Positions 2,211-11,516 of a stretch of 11,516 nucleotides of DNA are shown one piece after another. The notes below the pieces were generated by a model. That model was not told where the DNA came from. It searched no databases and saw nothing but the letters and a program-made list of their open reading frames with translations. Numbering within the stretch: position 1 is the first letter of the stretch; each line of letters begins with the position of its first letter. Source of the stretch: an uncultured Rhodobacter sp. (GTDB lineage: Bacteria > Pseudomonadota > Alphaproteobacteria > Rhodobacterales > Rhodobacteraceae); contig CALGTJ010000316.1 of the NCBI GenBank assembly GCA_937901435.1, positions 1 to 11,516 on the forward strand, in the 5' to 3' direction. The position numbers and the translations under genes were made by a program.

Positions 2211-2310
2211 GCGCAAGGGCAAGAGGTGCATTGTGGCGCATGGCGACCCGCACCTGCGCGACGGCGCAAAGCAACTTTACTTTAATCGCCATACGCGCAT
2301 GTATTTGGAC

Positions 2311-3351
2311 ATGACCCCTGCCCTCGCACATCCCATCGAAATCCTTGTCGTCGTCACCCCGCATTTCAATCTTGCGACAACCTCGGCGTTCCTTGACCCA
2401 TTTCGCGCGGCCAATTACCTGACCGGACAGAGCCGGTTCAAGTGGTCCCTGATCTCTTATTCGGGCGGCGCGGTCGCCACCAGCAACGGGATGACGGTCG
2501 CGACGGCGGCGTTGAGCACAACGACGGGATCCCCCCCCGATATCGTTGTTGTCTCGTCCAGTTGGTCCCCGGAACGCTACCAAGAGGCCGCGCTTACGAA
2601 ACAACTTCAACGGTGGGCCAGAGCCGGAACCAGAGCAGAAACAAGAGCCAGAACAAGGATCGGGGCGCTTGATACCGGCGGATTTATCCTTGCCAAGGCC
2701 GGCCTGCTGGATGGAAAACGCGCCACCGTCCATTACGAACATATCGACGCTTTCATCGAATTATTTCCCGAAATTGACGTCAGCGAGACCGTCTTTGTGG
2801 TTGATGGGCCTGTGTTTACCTGTTGCGGCGGGATGGCATCAATGGATCTCGCCCTGCATCTTTTGCAAGAGTTGGGCGGTGAGGGCCTTGCAAATGCCGC
2901 GGCAAGATATCTGTTTCACCATGCCGTGCGCGGGCCGGACGCATCCCAAAATCCCGACCGGCTGGAACCCTTTGGCCAGACCACACCCAGCCTTGTGCGC
3001 CGCGCCATTGATGTGATGGAGGCGCATCTTGAAACCCCCCTGTCGATCCCCGCGATTTGCCAGCACCTGAAGGTCTCACAGCGCCACCTTGGCCGGGTGT
3101 TCAAGGACTATGTCCGAAAGACCCCGGTGCTGTATTATCGTGACATCCGGTTGGATCGCGCGCGCGGGCTGGTCACCCAGACCGAGTTGAAGCTGAGCGA
3201 GATCGCGGTCGCCTCTGGCTTTGCCAGTCAGGTGCATTTCAGCCGCGCCTATCACCAGCGATTTGGCCTATCGCCGAGGCAAGACAGGATCGACGGGCGG
3301 GTTCCGTTTGAGTTTCGCGCCTGGCCGATGCACACCCCCAAGGGCCGCTAG
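2311..3351 (+). CDS. GlxA/CdhR-type AraC-family transcriptional regulator
   Basis: DNA-binding regulator of 346 residues from the chosen ATG at 2311. An ATG at 2299 is also possible, the frame is open further upstream, and no start has a clear ribosome site; 2311 places the domain start where relatives have it. Residues about 7-190 form a DJ-1/PfpI (amidotransferase-like) sensor domain (HPIEILVVVTPHFNL, then FLDPFRAANYLTG, later IGALDTGGFILA and CCGGMASMDLALHL). Residues about 226-330 form an AraC HTH_18 domain (IPAICQHLKVSQRHLGRVF, then LSEIAVASGF). This architecture is shared by GbdR and CdhR, which control glycine betaine and carnitine catabolism. The Rieske operon beside it is therefore its likely target. 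Residues 104-115 contain three imperfect four-residue repeats (RAGT, RAET, RART) not expected in relatives. The stop overlaps that of the convergent dehydrogenase gene. Confidence 0.85.
   Translation: MTPALAHPIEILVVVTPHFNLATTSAFLDPFRAANYLTGQSRFKWSLISYSGGAVATSNGMTVATAALSTTTGSPPDIVVVSSSWSPERYQEAALTKQLQRWARAGTRAETRARTRIGALDTGGFILAKAGLLDGKRATVHYEHIDAFIELFPEIDVSETVFVVDGPVFTCCGGMASMDLALHLLQELGGEGLANAAARYLFHHAVRGPDASQNPDRLEPFGQTTPSLVRRAIDVMEAHLETPLSIPAICQHLKVSQRHLGRVFKDYVRKTPVLYYRDIRLDRARGLVTQTELKLSEIAVASGFASQVHFSRAYHQRFGLSPRQDRIDGRVPFEFRAWPMHTPKGR
2620..2655 (+). repeat. Three imperfect 12-bp tandem repeats inside the regulator gene
   Basis: Units AGAGCCGGAACC, AGAGCAGAAACA and AGAGCCAGAACA follow one another without a gap and are followed by AGG. 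They are in frame and encode RAGT-RAET-RART just before the conserved RIGALDTG segment. Relatives usually pass from one such unit straight into the IGALDTG motif, so two units look like an in-frame duplication of 24 bp. Confidence 0.75.
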
Positions 3352-4277
3352 CGATATTTTGCGGCCGCCACCTGCAGAGCGGTCAGCATTTGGTCGCGTT
3401 TGCGCGACAGATCCTCTGGCGATTGCCCGCCTGCCTGCTCTGCCATCCCGGCCACCAGTGTCGCAATCGTGGCCTCGTCCAGATGGGGCGTGCCCAGATC
3501 ATCCCACCATCCGTTGAACGTGTCTTTGAAGTGGTCACAAAACGCCTGTAGTCCGCCCTCTCCGGCCCCCAGATGAAACAGGGTCGTCGGCCCCATCGCC
3601 GCCCATCTCAGGCCCGGCCCCGCCCACATCGCCTTGTCGATGTCCTCGACACTTGCAACGCCCTCAACCGCCATGTGAACGGCCTCGCGCCAGACCGCCG
3701 CCTGCAAACGGTTGGCGACATGGCCCGGCAGGCCTTTCTTGATGCGGATCGTGACTTTTCCGATGTCGTGATAAAACGCGTCGACCCGGTCCAGCACGCC
3801 CGCGCCGGTCTTTTGGTTGGCTGTCAGTTCGACCAGAGGGATCAGATGCGGCGGATTGAAAGGATGCCCCAGCACCAGCGGGGCCGGGTTCGCCCATCCC
3901 TGTTGAAGCGCCTCAAGCGTAAGGCCAGAGGTCGAACTTGATACAAGCGTGCGCGCGCCCAGAACCGGTTCGATTTCGCCAAAGATGGCATGTTTGACGG
4001 GCAGGCGTTCGGGGGTGTTTTCCTGCACGAAATCCGCGCCTTTCACCGCCTCTGCTGCACTCTGCGCAAAGCGAAGCGCCTCTGGTGTAGCGCGCTTCGT
4101 CAACCCCAGTTCATCCAGAGCGGGCCATGCGTTTTCGATATAGGCGCGCACGGCCTGTTCCGTCGTGGGGGCCGGGTCATAGACCGTGACCTGTCGGCCT
4201 GCCGCAAGGAACAGCGCCGTCCAGCTGGCCCCGATGACGCCCCCGCCAAGGACGGCAACATTGTGAATGTCAGACAT
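3348..4277 (-). CDS. 3-hydroxyacyl-CoA / L-carnitine dehydrogenase-like NAD-dependent dehydrogenase
   Basis: Cytosolic NAD-dependent dehydrogenase of 309 residues in the family that includes 3-hydroxyacyl-CoA dehydrogenase, lambda-crystallin/L-gulonate 3-dehydrogenase and L-carnitine dehydrogenase. The Rossmann motif is GGGVIG at residues 11-16, and Asp34 (YDPAP) at the end of the second strand indicates NAD rather than NADP. The catalytic pair is His138 (GHPFNP) and Glu150 (IPLVE), with the 12-residue spacing usual for the family; SSSTSG lies at 113-118. The C-terminal domain has the GPGLRWAAMGP segment also seen in carnitine dehydrogenases, but there is no fused thioesterase. It is the last gene of the operon, overlapping the previous stop by one base (TGATG) with AGGA eight bases upstream of its ATG. 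The likely role is oxidation of a 3-hydroxy carboxylate or betaine. The precise substrate is inferred from context only. Confidence 0.85.
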   Translation of the reverse strand: MSDIHNVAVLGGGVIGASWTALFLAAGRQVTVYDPAPTTEQAVRAYIENAWPALDELGLTKRATPEALRFAQSAAEAVKGADFVQENTPERLPVKHAIFGEIEPVLGARTLVSSSTSGLTLEALQQGWANPAPLVLGHPFNPPHLIPLVELTANQKTGAGVLDRVDAFYHDIGKVTIRIKKGLPGHVANRLQAAVWREAVHMAVEGVASVEDIDKAMWAGPGLRWAAMGPTTLFHLGAGEGGLQAFCDHFKDTFNGWWDDLGTPHLDEATIATLVAGMAEQAGGQSPEDLSRKRDQMLTALQVAAAKYR

Positions 4278-5017
4278 CAGAATAATCCTGGATTGAGAGG
4301 CGAGGCTGCGGTCATGCCGCCATCGATTGTGAATAGCTGTCCGGTGGCAAAACCGGCCTCGTCCGAGGCCAGCCAGACGGCCATGGATGCAACATCGGCA
4401 GGCGAGCCAAAGCGCCGTGTTGCGTGGCGCGCGATTGCGTCGGCGCGCGCCGCCTCGGGATCTTGTGCCAGATCAAAGCCTGCCTCCAACATCCCCGTTT
4501 CGATCCATCCCGGGCAGATCGCATTGCACCTGATACGGGGCCCGTGATCCACCGCAATCGAGCGTGTCAGCCCATGCACAAAGGCCTTTGACGCGTTGTA
4601 AAGCGCCATCGAGGGGTCAGCGACCTTGCCTGAAATCGACCCGATGTTGATGATCGATCCAACGGGGGTCATCTGCGGGATGAAGGCGCGGCAGACATTG
4701 AACACGCCGCGCGCATTCACCCCCATGACCAGATCCCAGTCGGCGTCAGTGCTATCAACCACCGTCTTTTCCACTTGAACCCCGGCGTTGTTCACCAGCG
4801 TATCGACAGGTCCGATCACGCGGCAGACGCGTTGCACATCTGCGTCTCTGGAGACGTCCAGTTCAAACCAGCCCACCGCTTTGGGCAGATCAGCAGGTCT
4901 TGCGCCGCGTCCGCAGGTCATGACCTGCGCGCCTTCAGTGACGAAGGCGTCAACGATCCCGCGACCGATCCCTTGCCGCCCGCCCGTCACAAAGGCGCGT
5001 TTGCCCGCCAGCCGCAT
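4277..5017 (-). CDS. Short-chain dehydrogenase/reductase (SDR), first of two
   Basis: Classical SDR of 246 residues, a cytosolic NAD(P)-dependent alcohol dehydrogenase or ketoreductase. The cofactor motif TGGRQGIG lies near residues 11-18 and the NNAG motif near residue 80. The catalytic Ser is in NIGSISG, and the Tyr and Lys are in YNASK. The C-terminal segment ends in the usual IDGG-type motif. The ATG at 5017 was preferred over a TTG one codon earlier because AGGAG lies seven bases upstream of it. The gene begins only 13 bases after the stop of the upstream SDR and overlaps the following dehydrogenase by one base, so it belongs to the middle of the operon. Substrate specificity cannot be read from the sequence; oxidation of an intermediate made by the Rieske oxygenase is the natural inference. 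Confidence 0.87.
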   Translation of the reverse strand: MRLAGKRAFVTGGRQGIGRGIVDAFVTEGAQVMTCGRGARPADLPKAVGWFELDVSRDADVQRVCRVIGPVDTLVNNAGVQVEKTVVDSTDADWDLVMGVNARGVFNVCRAFIPQMTPVGSIINIGSISGKVADPSMALYNASKAFVHGLTRSIAVDHGPRIRCNAICPGWIETGMLEAGFDLAQDPEAARADAIARHATRRFGSPADVASMAVWLASDEAGFATGQLFTIDGGMTAASPLNPGLF

Positions 5018-5024
5018 CAAGACG

Positions 5025-5029
5025 CTCCT
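5025..5029 (-). promoter_or_regulatory. Ribosome binding site AGGAG deciding the start of the first SDR
   Basis: On the minus strand the gap between the two SDR genes contains AGGAG, seven bases before the ATG at 5017. This supports that ATG over the in-frame TTG at 5020. The motif directly follows the upstream TGA stop, which suggests coupled translation. Confidence 0.7.
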
Positions 5030-5030
5030 A

Positions 5031-5825
5031 TCACAGCTTCATCTGCTGTACCTGCGCGGACAGGCCGCCATCCAGCACCCACAACTGACCACTGGCATAG
5101 CGCGCCTCATCCGAGGCCAGCCAGTTCACCAGATTGGCAATATCTTCGGGCGTTCCGTAGATGCGCATCGGATGCACGTCGCGCACCGCTTTTTGCAGGG
5201 TCTCAATCGTGCCACCGTCCCCGCCAGACCCGCCCCCGTTGAAAAAGCTTTGCAGCATCGGCGTGTCAATATAGCCGGGACAGATCGCGTTCACCCGGAT
5301 GCCCTCGGGGCCGTGATCACAGGCCATTGCGCGGGTCAGCGCGTGCACCGCGCCCTTGGTGGCGCAATAGGCCGCAAGGCCGGGATCGGCAATGAACCCA
5401 TCGTAAGAGCCGAAATTGATCAGAGACGCGCTGGTGCCCGATCTGGCCGCCTCGCGCAACAGCGGCAGCGCATATTTAGAGGTCAGAAAGGTGCCTGTGG
5501 CGTTGACGGCAAAGCTTTGGTTCCATTCGTCCAGCGTGGTGTCTTCGATCGTCTTTTCGATTTCGATCCCGGCCGCATTCACAAGGATGTTCAGGCGGCC
5601 CTGCTCTGCCTTGACCCGGTTCATCGCGTCGATGACTTCGCTTTCTTGCGTAACGTCGAGTTTGACAAAGCGGCTGCCATCCTCGTCGTGCTCTGCCAGT
5701 GACCCTTGCGGCGTCAGGTCGGCCGCATAGACCGTTGCGCCTTCTTTCACAAAGCGTGACACGATCGCGCGTCCGATCCCACCGCGCCCGCCCGTCACAA
5801 GGGCTGTCTTACCGTCAAGTTTCAT
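5031..5825 (-). CDS. Short-chain dehydrogenase/reductase (SDR), second of two, with Gly-rich insert
   Basis: Classical SDR of 264 residues. The dinucleotide motif is TGGRGGIG near residues 11-18, followed by a conserved Asp-containing strand (AADLT) and NAAG in the LVNAAGIE segment. The catalytic Ser is in NFGSYDG and the Tyr/Lys pair in YCATK. After the substrate-loop sequence PMLQSFF there is a glycine-rich run (NGGGSGGDGG) that is unusual for the family and may be a low-complexity insertion in the flexible lid. The gene starts 49 bases after the Rieske oxygenase stop and its own stop precedes the next SDR by 13 bases. It resembles sugar and hydroxyacid SDRs in general but no specific substrate can be assigned. 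It probably oxidises or reduces a pathway intermediate together with its neighbour. Only weak purine-rich sequence precedes the ATG. Confidence 0.87.
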   Translation of the reverse strand: MKLDGKTALVTGGRGGIGRAIVSRFVKEGATVYAADLTPQGSLAEHDEDGSRFVKLDVTQESEVIDAMNRVKAEQGRLNILVNAAGIEIEKTIEDTTLDEWNQSFAVNATGTFLTSKYALPLLREAARSGTSASLINFGSYDGFIADPGLAAYCATKGAVHALTRAMACDHGPEGIRVNAICPGYIDTPMLQSFFNGGGSGGDGGTIETLQKAVRDVHPMRIYGTPEDIANLVNWLASDEARYASGQLWVLDGGLSAQVQQMKL

Positions 5826-5874
5826 CGGCTGTTTCTTTCAGTGAAAGGGTGATCGGACCGTAAAGAGCCGTGCA

Positions 5875-6996
5875 TCACCCGGCCCCTTTCGCATAAGCGT
5901 CCAGGACCAAGCCATGAAAGTGATGCACCGCATGTTCGGATTTGCCAGAGCCCTGCGGGTCATGCACGATACGTCCCTGCGTGAACGCAGGCGTGTTCAT
6001 GCCGCGCTGCACGCTTTCGACAAGGCCGATATCCTCGATCTGCAAGACCTCGTCAAGATAGCGGATCGCGTCCAGTTCCATCGTGTCGGGTTCCGGTGTC
6101 TCAAGAAAGAAGTCATAGGTTTCAAGGGTGCGGTTCGGTCCCACTGGAATGATGTTTAACACGATCATCGACGACCGCCCCGGATAGCGCATCAGACAGG
6201 TTGTCGGATACAGCCACCAGACGGCGTGGGTCTTGACCGTGGCGTTTGACACATCATAGGCGGCATTCGGGCTGTTGCCGGCCTCGGCCATGTGACTGGA
6301 ATACATCCCGTATGTGGTGACTTTGTAGGTGTCCATATCGACAAGCTCGCAGAAATCCTTGTGCGCTGTCGGGCAGTGATAACATTCGAGGAAATTATCG
6401 ACCACGTTTTTCCAGTTGGATTTGACGTCATATGTCAGGCGACGCGCGAATGTCAGCTGGTCCACATCCGGGGCCCAGTGGCGCAGCTCGGATTCCAGAT
6501 CGCCCGATTGGGACGACAGCGACGGCGTATCCGGATCGAGGTTCACAAAAACAAAGCCGCAGAATTCTTCGACCTGCACCTGATCAAGGCAGATTTCGCC
6601 CGTGTCAAAGTCCTGCAGGCTTTCGGTGTGGGGGGCGCGCACCAATTGACCGTCCAAACGATAGACCCAAGCGTGATAGGGGCACATGATGCGGGTGGTC
6701 GTGCCCTCGCCTGCGAGCAGTTCATGGGCACGATGTTTGCACACATTATAAAAGGCGCGCAGCACGGCGTTCTTGTCCCGGACAATTACGATGGGGTGAC
6801 CTGCGATCTGAACGGTCAGGTAAGCCCCCGGCCCGCGCGTCTTTTCGACATGGCACACCCATTGCCACGACCGGCTGATCACCTTGGTCAAATCGGCATC
6901 AAACCACGCGGCCTGCGTGTAGGCGTCTGCCTTCAGAGAATAAGACCGTGACGGCTCTTTATCATAGCCCGCAGAGATCTGATCTGGATTGGTCAT
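5875..6996 (-). CDS. Rieske non-heme iron oxygenase of the CntA / quaternary ammonium type
   Basis: Oxygenase component of a Rieske monooxygenase, 373 residues from the ATG at 6996. AGAGG lies nine bases upstream; the same frame is open further back, but that extension is non-coding shadow. The [2Fe-2S] ligands are Cys86-His88 and Cys105-His108. The mononuclear iron ligands are His207 and His212, with Asp322 in QIEDIGLVESVQRG. The residue bridging the two centres is Glu204 (FLECYHC), where most Rieske oxygenases have Asp. In carnitine monooxygenase CntA (371 residues) the bridge is also Glu, and all these positions fall one residue away, so a quaternary ammonium substrate is likely. It is the promoter-proximal gene of the four-gene operon. 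No reductase (CntB-like) gene is present, so electrons must come from a partner encoded elsewhere. Substrate candidates include carnitine-like or betaine compounds; which one is not determinable here. Confidence 0.88.
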   Translation of the reverse strand: MTNPDQISAGYDKEPSRSYSLKADAYTQAAWFDADLTKVISRSWQWVCHVEKTRGPGAYLTVQIAGHPIVIVRDKNAVLRAFYNVCKHRAHELLAGEGTTTRIMCPYHAWVYRLDGQLVRAPHTESLQDFDTGEICLDQVQVEEFCGFVFVNLDPDTPSLSSQSGDLESELRHWAPDVDQLTFARRLTYDVKSNWKNVVDNFLECYHCPTAHKDFCELVDMDTYKVTTYGMYSSHMAEAGNSPNAAYDVSNATVKTHAVWWLYPTTCLMRYPGRSSMIVLNIIPVGPNRTLETYDFFLETPEPDTMELDAIRYLDEVLQIEDIGLVESVQRGMNTPAFTQGRIVHDPQGSGKSEHAVHHFHGLVLDAYAKGAG

Positions 6997-7023
6997 CTGG
7001 CAAAGCCTCTTTGTGCAACACCC

Positions 7024-7047
7024 CCAAGGTGCCGCATGTCCAAGGTG
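7024..7047 (-). promoter_or_regulatory. Candidate operator: direct repeat upstream of the Rieske operon
   Basis: The octamer CCAAGGTG occurs at 7024-7031 and again at 7040-7047, exactly 16 bases apart, beginning 28 bases upstream of the Rieske start codon. On the coding strand it reads CACCTTGG twice. A further inverted pair GTCCAA (7038-7043) and TTGGAC (7063-7068) overlaps it. AraC-family proteins bind direct repeats, so this could be the site of the nearby GlxA-type regulator. No convincing -10/-35 pair was identified, so this is a weak call. Confidence 0.3.
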
Positions 7048-7154
7048 GCAGAACCGCGGTCGTTGGACTTGATCTTTTTCGCCATAAACCAAACTATTTT
7101 CGTCACTGCCTTTCATCGGGATGGTCCCGCGGAAAGCCTTTTCTCGCCCGTCCT

Positions 7155-7229
7155 GACGTTGAGGGGCCTGACGTTGGGGGGCTTGACGTTTGAGGGCCTG
7201 ACGCCGGGGGGCCTGACGTCTGGAGACCT
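7155..7229. repeat. 15-bp tandem repeat, five units
   Basis: Five head-to-tail units: GACGTTGAGGGGCCT, GACGTTGGGGGGCTT, GACGTTTGAGGGCCT, GACGCCGGGGGGCCT and GACGTCTGGAGACCT. Two more degenerate 15-base steps may follow, because CATCTCAAG at 7232 and CATCTCAGG at 7247 keep the same period. The array lies between the Rieske operon and the 3' end of the dioxygenase remnant. It is translatable on the minus strand without stops, which explains a spurious upstream extension of the Rieske frame, but nothing suggests that it is protein-coding. The stretch 6997-7154 beside it holds only the presumed promoter and leader of the Rieske operon. Confidence 0.85.
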
Positions 7230-7258
7230 TACATCTCAAGCCTCTCCATCTCAGGTGG

Positions 7259-7454
7259 CGCGGGGCGGAAGGGGGGCCGCCTAGGTTTGCCCAGCAATTG
7301 CCCCACTGGCCCACCATCGGGGATCGGATAAAAGCGCGGCTTGATCGCCTCCATGACCTCTGCCAGTCGCGGCTCTGTCGAGGGGGGCGATGCGCGAGAC
7401 CACCACATCGGCAGAGGTGTCTTCGGTAAAATAACCCTGTTCCTGTGTGGACAT
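7259..7454 (-). pseudogene. Remnant of hydroxyquinol 1,2-dioxygenase
   Basis: Fragments of an intradiol dioxygenase that would cleave hydroxyquinol (1,2,4-trihydroxybenzene) to maleylacetate. It starts at the ATG at 7454 with MSTQEQGYFTEDTSADVVVS, the characteristic N-terminus of this enzyme. A frameshift in a run of six C (7382-7387 on the plus strand) moves into the frame reading STEPRLAEVMEAI. That is joined near 7343, by an internal deletion, to a C-terminal-half segment KPRFYPIPDGGPVGQLLG, ending in RPPFRPAP where intact enzymes continue with the iron-ligand region (RPAHIH). About 65 of the roughly 290 residues usual for the family remain, and no iron ligands survive. The start lies only three bases from the stop of the hydroxylase remnant, so the two were once adjacent operon genes. 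It cannot be functional. Confidence 0.8.
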
Positions 7455-7457
7455 GGC

Positions 7458-8744
7458 TTAGCCCTCCGTTTTGGCAGGAATGGCCGCAAGGACGCGGGCC
7501 AGTTCGCTTGAGTGATCGCCCTCTGCGCCATCGTTGCGCCAGCAGACATGCTGATCGGGCCGGGTGAGGATATAGCCCGCATCGCCCACCTCGCACGCAT
7601 GCGCCCAGTCGCCGGTGTGGTCGACATATTGCTGGCGTGGTCCGATGACATGGGCCGCGATGGCAATCCCCATATCGGCGGCAATCTTGGCTGCGGCCTC
7701 TGCCCATGTCATGCCGCCAAGACCGGTGAACAGCGTAAAGACGCCGTGCCCGGCCAGATCCAGCGTCGAATGCGTGCCACCCGCCGCGTCAAACAGCCAG
7801 ACATGGGGAACGCGCGCGCCCGGCCATGTGGTCGGCTGGTAATGCAGATCGGCGTCGGGGGTAAAATCGGGTTCCATCTGGCCATCGGTCACAATCGCAT
7901 CGGATCGATAGCGCTGGTTCATCTCGACACCATGCGCGTCAAATTCGTATGTCTTGAACGCAATCGCCGCATTCAGCGCGGCCCGATGCGCCTCTGCCTC
8001 TGGCGTGCAATCACAACGCGCGTCCATATTGGCCTGAATTTTCTCGATATCCGTGCCCCCGGTCATGCCCAGAGCCTCAAAGATCGGGCCGAATTCACCG
8101 ATGGACTGGTTGGCGCGGGTCACGATCTGCTTGGCAATCGGCGCGCGCTCGACTGTGTGGCTGTCCGGCAGGCCAGCCCCCGCCTGCCCTTTCACAACGG
8201 CCGCCAGCTTCCACGCGAGGTTGAAGGCATCCTGTATCGACGTGTTGGACCCCAGCCCGTTCGAGGGCGGATGCCGGTGCGCCGCGTCACCCATGATGAA
8301 CACGCGGCCCTTTGACATTTGCGTGGCATAGCTGTCGTTGACGGTCCATGTGGTTGCAGGCGGTCTTGACCAAGATCGGCTCGATAAAGGTCTGGGGCAG
8401 ATCGTTCATGAAGGACGGCGAGGACAGCAGATGCTCGGCTCTGGACAAATATGCGTGCCCCATGATTTCATCCGCCCGATCTCTTCGCCCGCAAGGCTTT
8501 CGCAAACGACATTCTTGCCCATCAGGCTTTGATCCATCGCGTTCAGATAGACCTCGGCCTCGACGTCGCGGCCCAGATCGCGCAGCACCTCCATGGTGCG
8601 CTGGTTGGTGATATGCGCGCGCGGCGTATTCGCCAGCCAGTGATAGCGGTTGATCACCACATTGGGCACGCCATAGCCGGACAAAAGCGCCGCCGTCGTC
8701 GATCCGGCCGGGCCAATGCCAGTGCCAGTGCCAGTGCCAAGGGC
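7458..8744 (-). pseudogene. Broken FAD-dependent phenol/resorcinol-type hydroxylase (TfdB family)
   Basis: Remnant of a single-component flavin aromatic hydroxylase that would insert a hydroxyl group into a phenol; the neighbours suggest resorcinol to hydroxyquinol. Three pieces can be aligned. The first (8744 to about 8456) holds the N-terminal FAD motif, with a repeat expansion, and NRYHWLANTPRAHITNQRT. A frameshift near 8455 leads to the second (about 8460-8356), with LSSPSFMNDLPQTFIEPIL. A second frameshift coincides with a deletion of perhaps 150-200 residues near 8357. It joins the third piece (8357-7458), starting TWTVNDSYATQ and carrying the second FAD motif GDAAHRHPPSNGLG and an apparently complete C-terminus. 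About 430 of roughly 600 residues survive. No good start codon lies before the FAD motif. The piece from 8318 down is a clean open frame of 286 codons, but without the N-terminal FAD site it should not act as an enzyme. Confidence 0.85.
8717..8739. repeat. TGCCAG hexanucleotide repeat, 3.8 units
   Basis: TGCCAG occurs at 8717, 8723 and 8729 and is followed by TGCCA at 8735. On the minus strand it encodes alternating Gly-Thr inside the FAD-binding motif of the hydroxylase remnant, giving GTGTGTGIGPAG where intact relatives have a single GTGPAG-like turn. Confidence 0.8.
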
Positions 8745-8760
8745 TCGCCCCTGAGGTCGG

Positions 8761-9232
8761 TTAAACGATGACCTGCATCGAGCCGCCGGTCGGGATGTTG
8801 GGGTGATCGGAATTGTACACGATCACCAGATCATACCCCCCGCCGTCCTTCAGACGCCATTGACCGCCCACCAGAGGCGTCTTGGCGACATTCGCGGCGG
8901 CAAAAGGCTGGGGAAAGCCAATATTCGGGTCGCCCCATGCGTTGCTATCGCCATCGTTGGGAAACAACCCGCCGACCTGCCTGTTGGTGTCCAACTGGTT
9001 CCAGATGGCGGTAAAGGTGCGGATCACATCCTACAGCCCCCAGAAGAAGTGAAAGCTGTAGTCAAACGGACGCCAGATCCGGGATCACCCGGATTGCCCT
9101 GCTGGCCAATGAAATAGGGCTGTACGGGGCCACGGTCGAGATCACCGGGATCTCTTCGGCCTCGCAGGTGGTGGCGACGGGGTTTGTGATTTCAGGCGTC
9201 GAAGCGACCAGCATCAGGTCGATTTCATCGTC
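8761..9232 (-). pseudogene. Remnant of a LivK-type ABC substrate-binding protein (Peripla_BP_6)
   Basis: Fragments of a periplasmic binding protein of the branched-chain amino acid type, a family also used for aromatic acid uptake. It begins without its N-terminus near 9232 (DEIDLMLVASTPEITNP, then EEIPVISTVAP). It shifts frame near 9122 to YFIGQQGNPGDPGS, and shifts again near 9080 to WRPFDYSFHFFWGL. At 9033-9031 a TAG stands where relatives continue without a stop; the frame resumes with DVIRTFTAIWNQLDTNR and PNDGDSNAWGDP. Near 8908 a large in-frame deletion joins GFP to the C-terminal segment PFAAANVAKTPLVGGQW, ending MQVIV and TAA. About 150 of roughly 400 residues are left, with two frameshifts and a nonsense codon. 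The signal peptide and first lobe are lost, and no LivFGHM partner genes are in the window. The piece 8761-9027 is open but is only the tail of this gene. Confidence 0.82.
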
Positions 9233-9234
9233 AA

Positions 9235-9414
9235 GGCGCCGCGCTGGGTGTCCTGTCGGGCAGACAGATCCTGTGGGTTTGCAAGGACACGCGGCAGGCC
9301 CGTCACAAAGGCCGCAAGCCCCTCCAGCGCCAGACCATCTGTGGCCACCGTGCGGTCTTGCGCATAAAGCGCCTCGGCGGCATGGGCCATCGCATTCAGA
9401 CCCGAGGTCACCGT
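9235..9414 (-). pseudogene. Remnant of maleylacetate reductase (iron-type alcohol dehydrogenase family)
   Basis: About 60 residues of an enzyme that reduces maleylacetate to 3-oxoadipate, the step after hydroxyquinol ring cleavage. The recognisable core is TVTSGLNAMAHAAEALYAQD, followed by GLPRVLANPQDLSARQDTQRGA; the HAxEALYA segment and the spacing to the PxDLxAR helix are typical of maleylacetate reductases. Both ends are gone. The N-terminal nucleotide-binding half ends where the divergent LysR remnant begins (about 9410-9420). The C-terminus is joined near 9235 to the binding-protein remnant. Intact enzymes have about 350 residues. The larger open frames running through here on the minus strand are chimeras of remnants and antisense sequence and are not genes. 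Confidence 0.75.
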
Positions 9415-9430
9415 CGTCACCGCAGGCGGT

Positions 9431-9901
9431 TTGACCGAAGGTGCTGCGGCCCTTGGCAAGTCCCAGCCCAGCGTGTCGCGAACTATTTCCATGTTTGAGG
9501 CGCGGGTTGCTGGCAGTCCGGTCTTTATGGATGGGGTGATTTCCAACATGATCGCGGGGTTTCAGGTCGCCTACCCCGATGTCAGGATCGATCAGTCCTT
9601 TGGCTATGCCACCGGGTTGATGGACCAGCTTGCCTTTGGCAACATCGATCTGGCGATCTGCCCGATGAAGGACGGCACCGTCCTGCCCTATTCGGTTGTC
9701 TTTTTGCAAAAGCATCTGAAAAGTCTGGTCGCCCTGCCGATCCGCATCGAGCATCCGGAACGTCAACCTGGCTTGCTGCGTCGGATTGATCGCCCCGAAC
9801 GCCCCGATGCCCTGCGGTTTCGCAACGACATCAAGCAACAGTTCGCTCCCCTGTCCCACACCATCGGCGCGCGAAAGCGCAATACCCCATGGCGCAAGTA
9901 G
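9431..9901 (+). pseudogene. Internally deleted LysR-type transcriptional regulator
   Basis: A shortened LysR-family regulator that probably once controlled the divergent hydroxyquinol genes. The frame stays open for 156 codons, against about 300 in the family. From the TTG at 9431 it carries the recognition-helix part of the HTH (ALGKSQPSVSRTISMFEARV), without the first helix. It then passes by an in-frame deletion to the start of the effector domain (GSPVFMDGVISNMIAGF, then YPDVRIDQS and GNIDLAICPM). A further deletion leads to a typical C-terminus (TVLPYSVVF, LVALPIRIEHPERQPGLLRR, FAPLSHTI). Sequence upstream of 9431 continues the LysR frame for a few codons (TVVTAGG) before running into the maleylacetate reductase remnant. 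With no proper start and an incomplete DNA-binding domain it is very unlikely to work, although the open frame could still be translated. Confidence 0.78.
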
Positions 9902-9909
9902 GAGCGTCT

Positions 9910-9951
9910 TGTCGGTGTGGAGGTTTCGGTGTGGGTGTTTCGGTGTGGGTG
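9910..9951. repeat. 14-bp tandem repeat, three units
   Basis: Two identical units TTTCGGTGTGGGTG at 9924-9937 and 9938-9951 are preceded by a diverged copy TGTCGGTGTGGAGG at 9910-9923 and followed by TTTA. The repeat fills most of the 70-base gap between the LysR remnant and the ABC ATPase stop. It forms no stem-loop that would act as a terminator for either gene. Confidence 0.8.
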
Positions 9952-9971
9952 TTTAGGGGGGCGTTTGTGGT

Positions 9972-11117
9972 TTACCCGCGCCCTTGCCTCTGGGCGAGCC
10001 GGATCCGCTGGCCATCCTGCGGATCAAAGAGAACGCATTTTTCCATGTTGAAAACCAGATCGCGGGTATCCCCGGCCTTGGTTTGGGTGTCGGCCCGCAT
10101 CCGGCAAATGACGTCCTTGTAGCCGAAGGTCGTCGTGACAAAGGTATCTGACCCGGCAGGTTCCACCACCTCAATCCTGTTGGGCACACCAACAAGCGCC
10201 ACGGCATTGCGATCTACGCTGTCCTGATCTGTCACCGCTTCGGGGCGGATGCCGAACAGAATATCAGTGCCCTCACCCATACCTTCTGGCATATCTTCTG
10301 GCAAACCCGTCAGAGGCAAGGCCACATCGCCGCCCTGCGCATCCACAATACGCACCACCGCCCCCTGCCCGGTCATGGCCAGCCGCCCCGGAATGAGGTT
10401 CATCGACGGAGACCCCATGAAGCTGGCCACAAACACATTGGCGGGATCGTCGTAAATCTCCTGCGGTGTGCCAAGCTGCTGCACAAAACCGCCGTTCATC
10501 ACCGCAATGCGGGTGGACAAGGTCAGCGCCTCTATCTGGTCATGGGTGACATAGACAATCGTGGTGCCCAGATTCTGGTGCAGTTTCTTGATCTCGGTGC
10601 GCATATCGACGCGCAGTTTGGCGTCAAGGTTCGACAGAGGTTCATCGAAAAGGAACACATCCGGCTTGCGCACCAAGGCGCGCCCCATTGCGACGCGCTG
10701 ACGCTGGCCGCCGGATAGTTGCCCCGGCTTGCGGGTCAACAGCGGCTCGATCTGCAACAGCTTGGCCACATCGGCCATCGCCCTGTCACGTTCTGGTTTG
10801 GGGATGCCGTGCATCTCAAGCCCAAAGGTGATGTTCTGCGCCACAGTCATGTTCGGGTACAAGGCGTAGCTTTGAAACACCATCGCGATGTTGCGCTTGG
10901 ACGGGTGGACCCCGTTCATCCGCTTGCCCTTGATAGAGATATCGCCCGTCGTGATTTCCTCCAGCCCCGCGATCATGTTCAGCAGGGTGGACTTGCCGCA
11001 GCCAGAGGGGCCGACGAGAACCAGGAACTCTCCTTCCTCGACAGAGATGTCCACATTGTGCAGCACCTGCACCGAGCCATAGGATTTGGTCGCGTTGTTG
11101 ATGTCGAGAAACCCCAT
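9972..11117 (-). CDS. CUT1-family sugar ABC transporter ATP-binding protein (UgpC/MalK type)
   Basis: Cytosolic ATPase of 381 residues that powers a carbohydrate (or polyol/glycerol-phosphate-like) importer. Walker A GPSGCGKS is at residues 36-43, the Q-loop Gln at 82 (VFQSY) and the signature LSGGQ at 134-138. Walker B VFLFDE is at 154-159 and the switch His at 192 (THDQ). Residues from about 235 to the end form the MalK-type TOBE/regulatory region (FMGSPSMNLIPG, then FGIRPEAV). All catalytic residues are intact, so it appears functional. The ATG at 11117 lies three bases after the stop of the permease gene, with AAAGG in the permease tail serving as ribosome site. It is the last visible gene of the operon and runs towards the graveyard. 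The specific sugar cannot be told from the ATPase. Confidence 0.9.
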   Translation of the reverse strand: MGFLDINNATKSYGSVQVLHNVDISVEEGEFLVLVGPSGCGKSTLLNMIAGLEEITTGDISIKGKRMNGVHPSKRNIAMVFQSYALYPNMTVAQNITFGLEMHGIPKPERDRAMADVAKLLQIEPLLTRKPGQLSGGQRQRVAMGRALVRKPDVFLFDEPLSNLDAKLRVDMRTEIKKLHQNLGTTIVYVTHDQIEALTLSTRIAVMNGGFVQQLGTPQEIYDDPANVFVASFMGSPSMNLIPGRLAMTGQGAVVRIVDAQGGDVALPLTGLPEDMPEGMGEGTDILFGIRPEAVTDQDSVDRNAVALVGVPNRIEVVEPAGSDTFVTTTFGYKDVICRMRADTQTKAGDTRDLVFNMEKCVLFDPQDGQRIRLAQRQGRG

Positions 11118-11120
11118 GGG

Positions 11121-11516
11121 TCAGCCTTTCACGGAACCGGCCATCAGACCACGCACGAAATAGCGGCCCGCGACGATGTAGACGAGAAGAGTGGGAAGCG
11201 CGGCCATGATGGCCCCGGCGAAATGCACGTTATATTCCCGCACCCCGGTCGAGGAATTGACGAGATTGTTCAGCGCCACGGTCATCGGCGCAGTGCCGCC
11301 CGAGGCAAAGGAGGCCCCGAACAGAAAGTCGTTCCAGATATTCGTGAACAGCCAGATCACGAAGACCACGGTGATCGGCCCCGAAGAGGGCATCAGGATG
11401 CGGTAGAAGATCTGAAAGAACCCGGCCCCGTCAATCTGGGCCGCCCGCACCAGCTCGGTTGGAAAGGCGGCGTAGTGGTTGCGGAAATAGAGCGTCGAAA
11501 AGCCGATGCCATAGAC
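11121..11516 (-). CDS. CUT1-family sugar ABC transporter permease (MalG/GtsC-like), 5'-partial
   Basis: C-terminal 131 residues of an inner-membrane permease; the gene continues beyond the right edge of the window. The coupling-helix (EAA) motif is visible as LVRAAQIDGAGFFQIFYRIL, followed by membrane segments (ITVVFVIWLFTNIWNDFLFG and, later, LPTLLVYIVAGRYFVRGL) and the common ending GLMAGSVKG. The segment TVALNNLVNSSTGVREYNV resembles glucose/mannose-type permeases such as GtsC, so a hexose or glucoside substrate is plausible but not established. An internal ATG at 11450 is not the start, because the conserved motif begins upstream of it. The stop lies three bases before the ATPase gene, so the two are co-transcribed. 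Confidence 0.85.
   Translation of the reverse strand, partial: VYGIGFSTLYFRNHYAAFPTELVRAAQIDGAGFFQIFYRILMPSSGPITVVFVIWLFTNIWNDFLFGASFASGGTAPMTVALNNLVNSSTGVREYNVHFAGAIMAALPTLLVYIVAGRYFVRGLMAGSVKG

Follow-up and report, generated by a model that had tools for sequence, protein, structure and literature searches.

Remnants of a hydroxyquinol-pathway cluster

In the stretch of DNA analysed in this work (11,516 nucleotides, referred to here as the window), remnants of five genes lie next to each other at positions 7258-9906: a LysR-type regulator, a maleylacetate reductase, a LivK-type binding protein, a FAD-dependent phenol hydroxylase, and a hydroxyquinol 1,2-dioxygenase (Table 1). The same five families had been read from the sequence alone in the earlier note, with coordinates no more than 5 bases off. 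A synteny comparison with relatives carrying an intact cluster, suggested in that note, found this region collinear with a 9.4-kb cluster in the two closest relatives, L001 (uncultured Roseobacter sp., CANKZM010000008.1) and L002 (Roseobacter sp. MAG, JAGXGZ010000028.1), at approximately 80% nucleotide identity; both have the genes, gene order and strands of the window, but are complete. Over the aligned columns of a long-gap alignment the identity was 81% to L001 and 79% to L002. In blastn the window matched L001 in eight collinear pieces (75-84% identity, best E-value 0); for L001 and L002 together the pieces were 72-84% identical, and an extra piece in the dioxygenase (7258-7342) matched L002. 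Pfam domains in the window are FAD_binding_3 and Rng_hyd_C (7458-8318), FAD_binding_3 (8406-8684), ADH_Fe_C (9214-9549), and LysR_substrate (9431-9901), while the binding-protein and dioxygenase remnants have no Pfam match and nonetheless align to the intact relatives.

The span left amounts to 2,649 of approximately 9,440 bases (approximately 28%, with approximately 72% gone), and not one of the nine genes survives intact: 52% is kept of LysR, 16% of the reductase, 37% of the binding protein, 0% of the transporter genes, 71% of the hydroxylase, and 22% of the dioxygenase. The shrinkage had previously been put at about 6 kb to about 2.6 kb in a five-gene cluster. The present size stands (2.65 kb), and the starting size has to be raised to 9.4 kb because four Liv transporter genes (approximately 3.4 kb), missed in reading the sequence by itself, are wholly missing.

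Table 1. Features of the window, and deletions relative to the intact clusters of L001 and L002
Feature	Window position	Strand	Deletion size	Reference position	Remarks
Neighbour operon	3348-6996	-			Intact: Rieske oxygenase (GbcA-like), two SDRs, carnitine-dehydrogenase-like gene
Stretch between remnant and Rieske gene	6997-7257				15-base repeat array 7152-7219
Hydroxyquinol 1,2-dioxygenase remnant	7258-7454	-		L002 10865-11525	About 22% kept; single-base insertion at 7387; 3' end lost
FAD-dependent phenol hydroxylase remnant	7458-8720	-		L001 9131-10861	About 71% kept; single-base deletion near 8451
D6 junction	8712-8756	-		L001 about 5720 to 9140	Holds 4.7-copy 6-base repeat (8712-8739)
LivK-type (Peripla_BP_6) binding protein remnant	8757-9236	-		L001 4714-5720	First 272 bases lost
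Maleylacetate reductase remnant	9237-9415	-		L001 3841-4019	179 of 1092 bases, both ends cut
LysR-type regulator remnant	9416-9906	+		L001 2304-3217	Divergent from the rest; gene start lost; frame open to stop at 9901
UgpC-type ATPase and part of permease gene running off the window	9972-11516	-			Intact; ATPase above NCBIfam UgpC cut-off
D1	near 9677		267 bp		Within LysR; multiple of 3
D2	near 9505		156 bp		Within LysR; multiple of 3
D3	9415/9416		623/624 bp		LysR start into reductase; shared intergenic region removed too
D4			694/693 bp		Reductase into binding protein
D5	near 8897		about 525 bp		Within binding protein
D6			about 3.4 kb		Binding-protein stop to hydroxylase start; two Liv ATPase and two Liv permease genes gone whole
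D7	8351/8352		467 bp		Within hydroxylase; not a multiple of 3
D8	near 7343-7353		466/465 bp		Within dioxygenase

The intact cluster of L001 is arranged in the order of LysR (divergent), maleylacetate reductase, binding protein (Peripla_BP_6), two Liv ATPases, two Liv permeases, FAD hydroxylase, intradiol dioxygenase, and BKACE, the last scoring above the cut-off for 3-oxoadipate:acetyl-CoA acetyltransferase and being followed by a nitroreductase-like gene and a DctP gene; these three genes beyond the dioxygenase have no blastn match in the window. The closest PDB matches of the L001 dioxygenase (10865-11746) are chlorohydroxyquinol and hydroxyquinol dioxygenases; hydroxyquinol-type enzymes make up three of the top five matches (1e-96 to 1e-66), the best catechol enzyme is found at 1e-37, and the NCBIfam catechol and chlorocatechol models score below their cut-offs. 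The L001 reductase, a member of the iron-type alcohol dehydrogenase family, matches a solved maleylacetate reductase at 4e-128, and the closest solved relatives of the intact hydroxylase are 2-hydroxybiphenyl 3-monooxygenase and 2,4-dichlorophenol 6-monooxygenase; a PDB search with the binding protein gave no match. Judged by family, the dioxygenase and maleylacetate reductase of the decayed cluster are of the hydroxyquinol-pathway type. The hydroxylase is placed by family as the putative source of hydroxyquinol, and its substrate is likewise putative; pathway chemistry beyond the family level is deduced from the families. The label "resorcinol-type" given earlier was a guess at the substrate, since the sequence gives the hydroxylase family only. 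The remnant is a decayed hydroxyquinol-pathway cluster of a Roseobacter-like bacterium, with a phenol-type compound as the probable original substrate.

Lesions and deletion junctions

Lesions were called by long-gap alignment of the window against L001 and L002. Eight deletions of at least 156 bp were mapped on both sides (D1 to D8, Table 1), and the dioxygenase is also lost from its 3' end onward. Six single-base indels were present against both references (near 9129, 9076, 8451, 7491, 7485, and 7387), of which the first two are deletions in the binding protein and the pair 7491 and 7485 restores the frame; five more were seen against one reference only. A single in-frame stop, TAG at 9031-9033, lies in the binding protein, and the cluster carries about 16 lesions in total. 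The two references agree on the deletion sizes within 1 bp except for the 3.4-kb D6, which was measured from its outer ends because the aligner had put short, probably chance, blocks inside it. The picture of an operon eroded mainly by deletion, drawn in the earlier note, was borne out by the eight mapped deletions against six single-base indels and one stop; so were its internal deletions in at least four of the five genes (LysR, binding protein, hydroxylase, and dioxygenase, the reductase being cut at both ends) and its frameshifts or nonsense changes in three (binding protein, hydroxylase, and dioxygenase). Four of the five within-gene deletions have a length divisible by three (binomial p = 0.045), a pattern not expected from plain neutral decay.

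How the deletions arose was approached through their junctions. Direct repeats as a general mechanism were tested at seven of the eight junctions (D6 left out) and rejected as not above chance: the mean junction ambiguity was 2.8 bases, compared with 1.65 in 3000 simulated deletions (p = 0.10), and was zero at D3 and D7, so there is no demonstrated role for repeats in the deletions. Slippage (recombination at short direct repeats), as opposed to repeat-independent end joining, is a possible but doubtful route. Blastn overlaps of 11 and 15 bases (8897-8907 and 9413-9427) and, at D1, D2, D4, and D5, an ambiguity of at least 5 relative to one or other reference speak for it, and it is further weakened by the lost ends being known only from relatives approximately 20% diverged. 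Short tandem arrays are located outside both ends of the remnant (7152-7219, 15 bases; 9912-9954, 14 bases), and a third one, of 6 bases (8712-8739), at the junction of the largest deletion, D6. An insertion element as the cause was rejected, as no transposase family was found among the scanned window proteins and no large insertion in the alignment.

Relatives of the cluster and of its neighbours

A scan of species genomes with the hydroxylase remnant gave 247 candidate stretches, 220 of which encode a relative, and the best 80 were kept. The core LysR'-MAR-SBP-LivGFHM-FAD-DOX is complete and uninterrupted in 32 of these 80 loci, L001 included; the remaining ones have other gene orders or are cut by contig ends. 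DNA matches at E ≤ 0.001 were found in 10 of 19 genomes of the L001 genus and in 133 of 394 genomes of its family, where two candidates per genome were scored and the statements made here concern the matches listed. Among the listed matches in these 19 genus-level and 394 family-level genomes the eroded form was not found; the strong matches stop at the junctions of the window, as intact clusters would, and none extends more than approximately 30 bases across a mapped junction. The two genomes nearest in phnE belong to genera represented by 1 and 2 genomes, and none of these three matched, in a search that had no positive control. A breakage screen of the best 80 loci, which used identity thresholds, flagged 33 gene hits as partial or with a stop: 24 were hydroxylase hits with stops at most 5 residues from the alignment end, and the other nine were found in L005, L018, L025 (twice), L033, L036, L049, L065, and the Rieske gene of L074. 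Multi-gene erosion comparable to that of the window was absent from the screen output for these 80 loci, and in the literature collection searched no paper joined Roseobacter, pseudogene and hydroxyquinol.

The flanks consist of seven complete open frames and two reaching the window ends, in agreement with the flanking operons having been described as intact. Among 186 loci compared, the sequence separating the remnant from the Rieske gene had no confident match. The genes at 2308-6996 (GbcA-like Rieske, carnitine-dehydrogenase-like, two SDRs, and a GbdR-like regulator) all score under the NCBIfam thresholds for these names and look like an unassigned quaternary-amine pathway; on pTHAF9_b, relatives occur beside choline-sulfatase, aldehyde dehydrogenase, and BKACE. 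The GlxA-type regulator beside the Rieske operon is an open frame in the window, and a 12-base repeat array inside its gene (2620-2657) leaves the frame open. The second PhnE-type permease (820-2133) has 437 residues, and its first half is taken as an extra N-terminal part because the best stretch of the PhnE model begins at residue 217.

One relative, G008 (L074, CANMMF010000007.1), has both pathways in the order and orientation of the window, with the Rieske operon 4.5 kb beyond the hydroxyquinol cluster. Its hydroxyquinol cluster is whole, aligning free of stops from LysR through the BKACE, nitroreductase-like and DctP genes. Its Rieske gene is interrupted by a stop at residue 321 of 372, one SDR aligns over 87 of 264 residues only, the other is missing 11 residues from its start, and the regulator is divided over separate frames; there is no N in this stretch. 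The broken operon corresponds to L141 2388-9164 (G008:C7:250387-257163), with probable frameshifts in a gene between. Among the best 80 loci, L074 alone has a Rieske gene beside the hydroxyquinol cluster. The Rieske gene occurs in 31 family genomes, eight of which have hydroxyquinol-cluster matches with listed places, and G008 is the only one of the eight with both clusters on one contig, although many-contig drafts could hide others. It might be that the window and G008 have each stripped the opposite half of one inherited two-pathway catabolic island, which we consider unlikely. The window Rieske gene is 84% identical to that of G097 and 77% to that of G008, and in blastn the window cluster is nearer to L001 than to G008; shared descent of the two-cluster arrangement was not shown for this reason.

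Loss of constraint and decay of the pathway

Window-specific changes fell at codon positions 1/2/3 as 29/34/65 (834 codons), compared with lineage-specific changes of 14/5/80 in L001 and 30/10/82 in L002 (remnant versus both relatives, positions 2 and 3, p = 1.6e-7). The control, for which six of the eight open genes in the flanks were used, gave 47/36/82 in the window versus 48/15/114 and 31/15/91 in relatives, so that second-position change is also above that of relatives in the intact flanks (z = 3.9 per covered site), which weakens the codon-constraint test. Remnant and flanks did not differ in raw position-2/3 counts (34/65 versus 36/82, p = 0.56), and only per covered site did the remnant exceed the flanks (z = 2.4), the two analyses having used different outgroup rules and hence different numbers of covered third positions. 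Jointly, the six flanking genes (8-2133 and 3348-6996) have approximately 2.4 times the second-position changes of relatives (36 versus 15 and 15), which may reflect a lineage under weak selection or errors in the sequence. In a two-phase model, 46% (95% range 25-73%) of the window branch since its split from the two reference clusters falls after the loss of constraint, and 34% (5-68%) when the flanks of the window itself serve as the baseline. Constraint on the remnant is likely relaxed, with a loose date of perhaps a third to half of the branch and a wide error, the second range extending down to nearly recent. The earlier dating of the loss as "fairly recent" had been based on the ease with which the pieces are recognised, and the codon-position shares do not establish it.

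The remnant, a probable pseudogene cluster, has had its coding capacity destroyed relative to the intact orthologues, and with no gene whole it most likely has no present role. We consider it very probable that a working catabolic cluster lost its selective value and was removed piecemeal by separate deletions plus a few indels and one stop. The intact cluster would have served uptake by a Liv-type ABC transporter, hydroxylation of a phenol to hydroxyquinol, ring cleavage to maleylacetate, and reduction to 3-oxoadipate, under LysR control. After its selective value was lost in this lineage, separate deletions within and between genes would have stripped the cluster, with the few single-base indels and the stop adding to them. 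This order of events is a reconstruction, and so is the cause, which may be a substrate no longer needed or poor selection in the lineage.

That the remnant is an assembly or binning artefact, with an intact cluster having been collapsed or joined chimerically during assembly, is very unlikely: the eroded form is known from one assembly and is shared by no listed relative match, and sequence error could partly explain the raised second-position change in the flanks, but eight separate junctions are mapped in 2.65 kb, the seven tested share repeats no more than expected by chance, the flanking frames are open, and a misjoin alone gives no raised second-position change against intact relatives such as the pieces show. 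Also very unlikely is the continued use of a truncated protein in a new role, from the 156-codon LysR frame (9431-9901) or the 286-codon hydroxylase frame (7458-8318), since, for all that both frames are open and four of the five within-gene deletions keep the reading frame, LysR changes are spread nearly evenly over codon positions (7/9/10, versus 1/0/16 and 4/0/9 in relatives), its frame retains the DNA-binding domain incompletely (HTH_1 17-41 of 60, below cut-off), and of FAD_binding_3 the hydroxylase frame retains no more than the final fifth (281-349 of 349).

Piecemeal decay of a catabolic cluster is ordinary in kind, and the cluster itself is of a known type. Plasmid clusters in PLSDB (Paracoccus, Allorhizobium/Agrobacterium vitis) combine a FAD monooxygenase with maleylacetate reductase as in the window, with LysR or the binding protein annotated under the match depending on the record; Paracoccus pPAN2 also has the dioxygenase and a Liv-type transporter, but in a different order (FAD-MAR, divergent LysR, a hypothetical gene, then dioxygenase, transporter, and binding protein). 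One study reports an enrichment of tfdB, tfdF, and chqB genes in lake Yoonia strains (PMC10673129). In Salmonella pseudogenes, according to PMC2916853, deletion is a main route of erosion and insertions are a minority, 346 of 378 pseudogenes carry a single inactivating mutation, and those that have lost more than 20% of their length form a small fraction. The deletion-led erosion is alike in the window, whereas the single cluster here carries about 16 lesions and is approximately 72% gone; the decay is unusually far advanced, yet readable.

The locus offers a readable case in which a whole pathway, with its enzymes, uptake system and regulator, was lost via many separate deletions, and the intact references are near enough for the junctions to be mapped. 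The parts most fully gone escape a reading of the sequence alone, as the four transporter genes have left no trace. Reciprocal decay of the two neighbouring pathways in the window and in G008, if true, would be expected where each lineage has specialised on one of two alternative substrates; and if the decay in G008 has a shared history with that in the window, work on this locus could address whether pathways lying side by side disappear through specialisation or at random.
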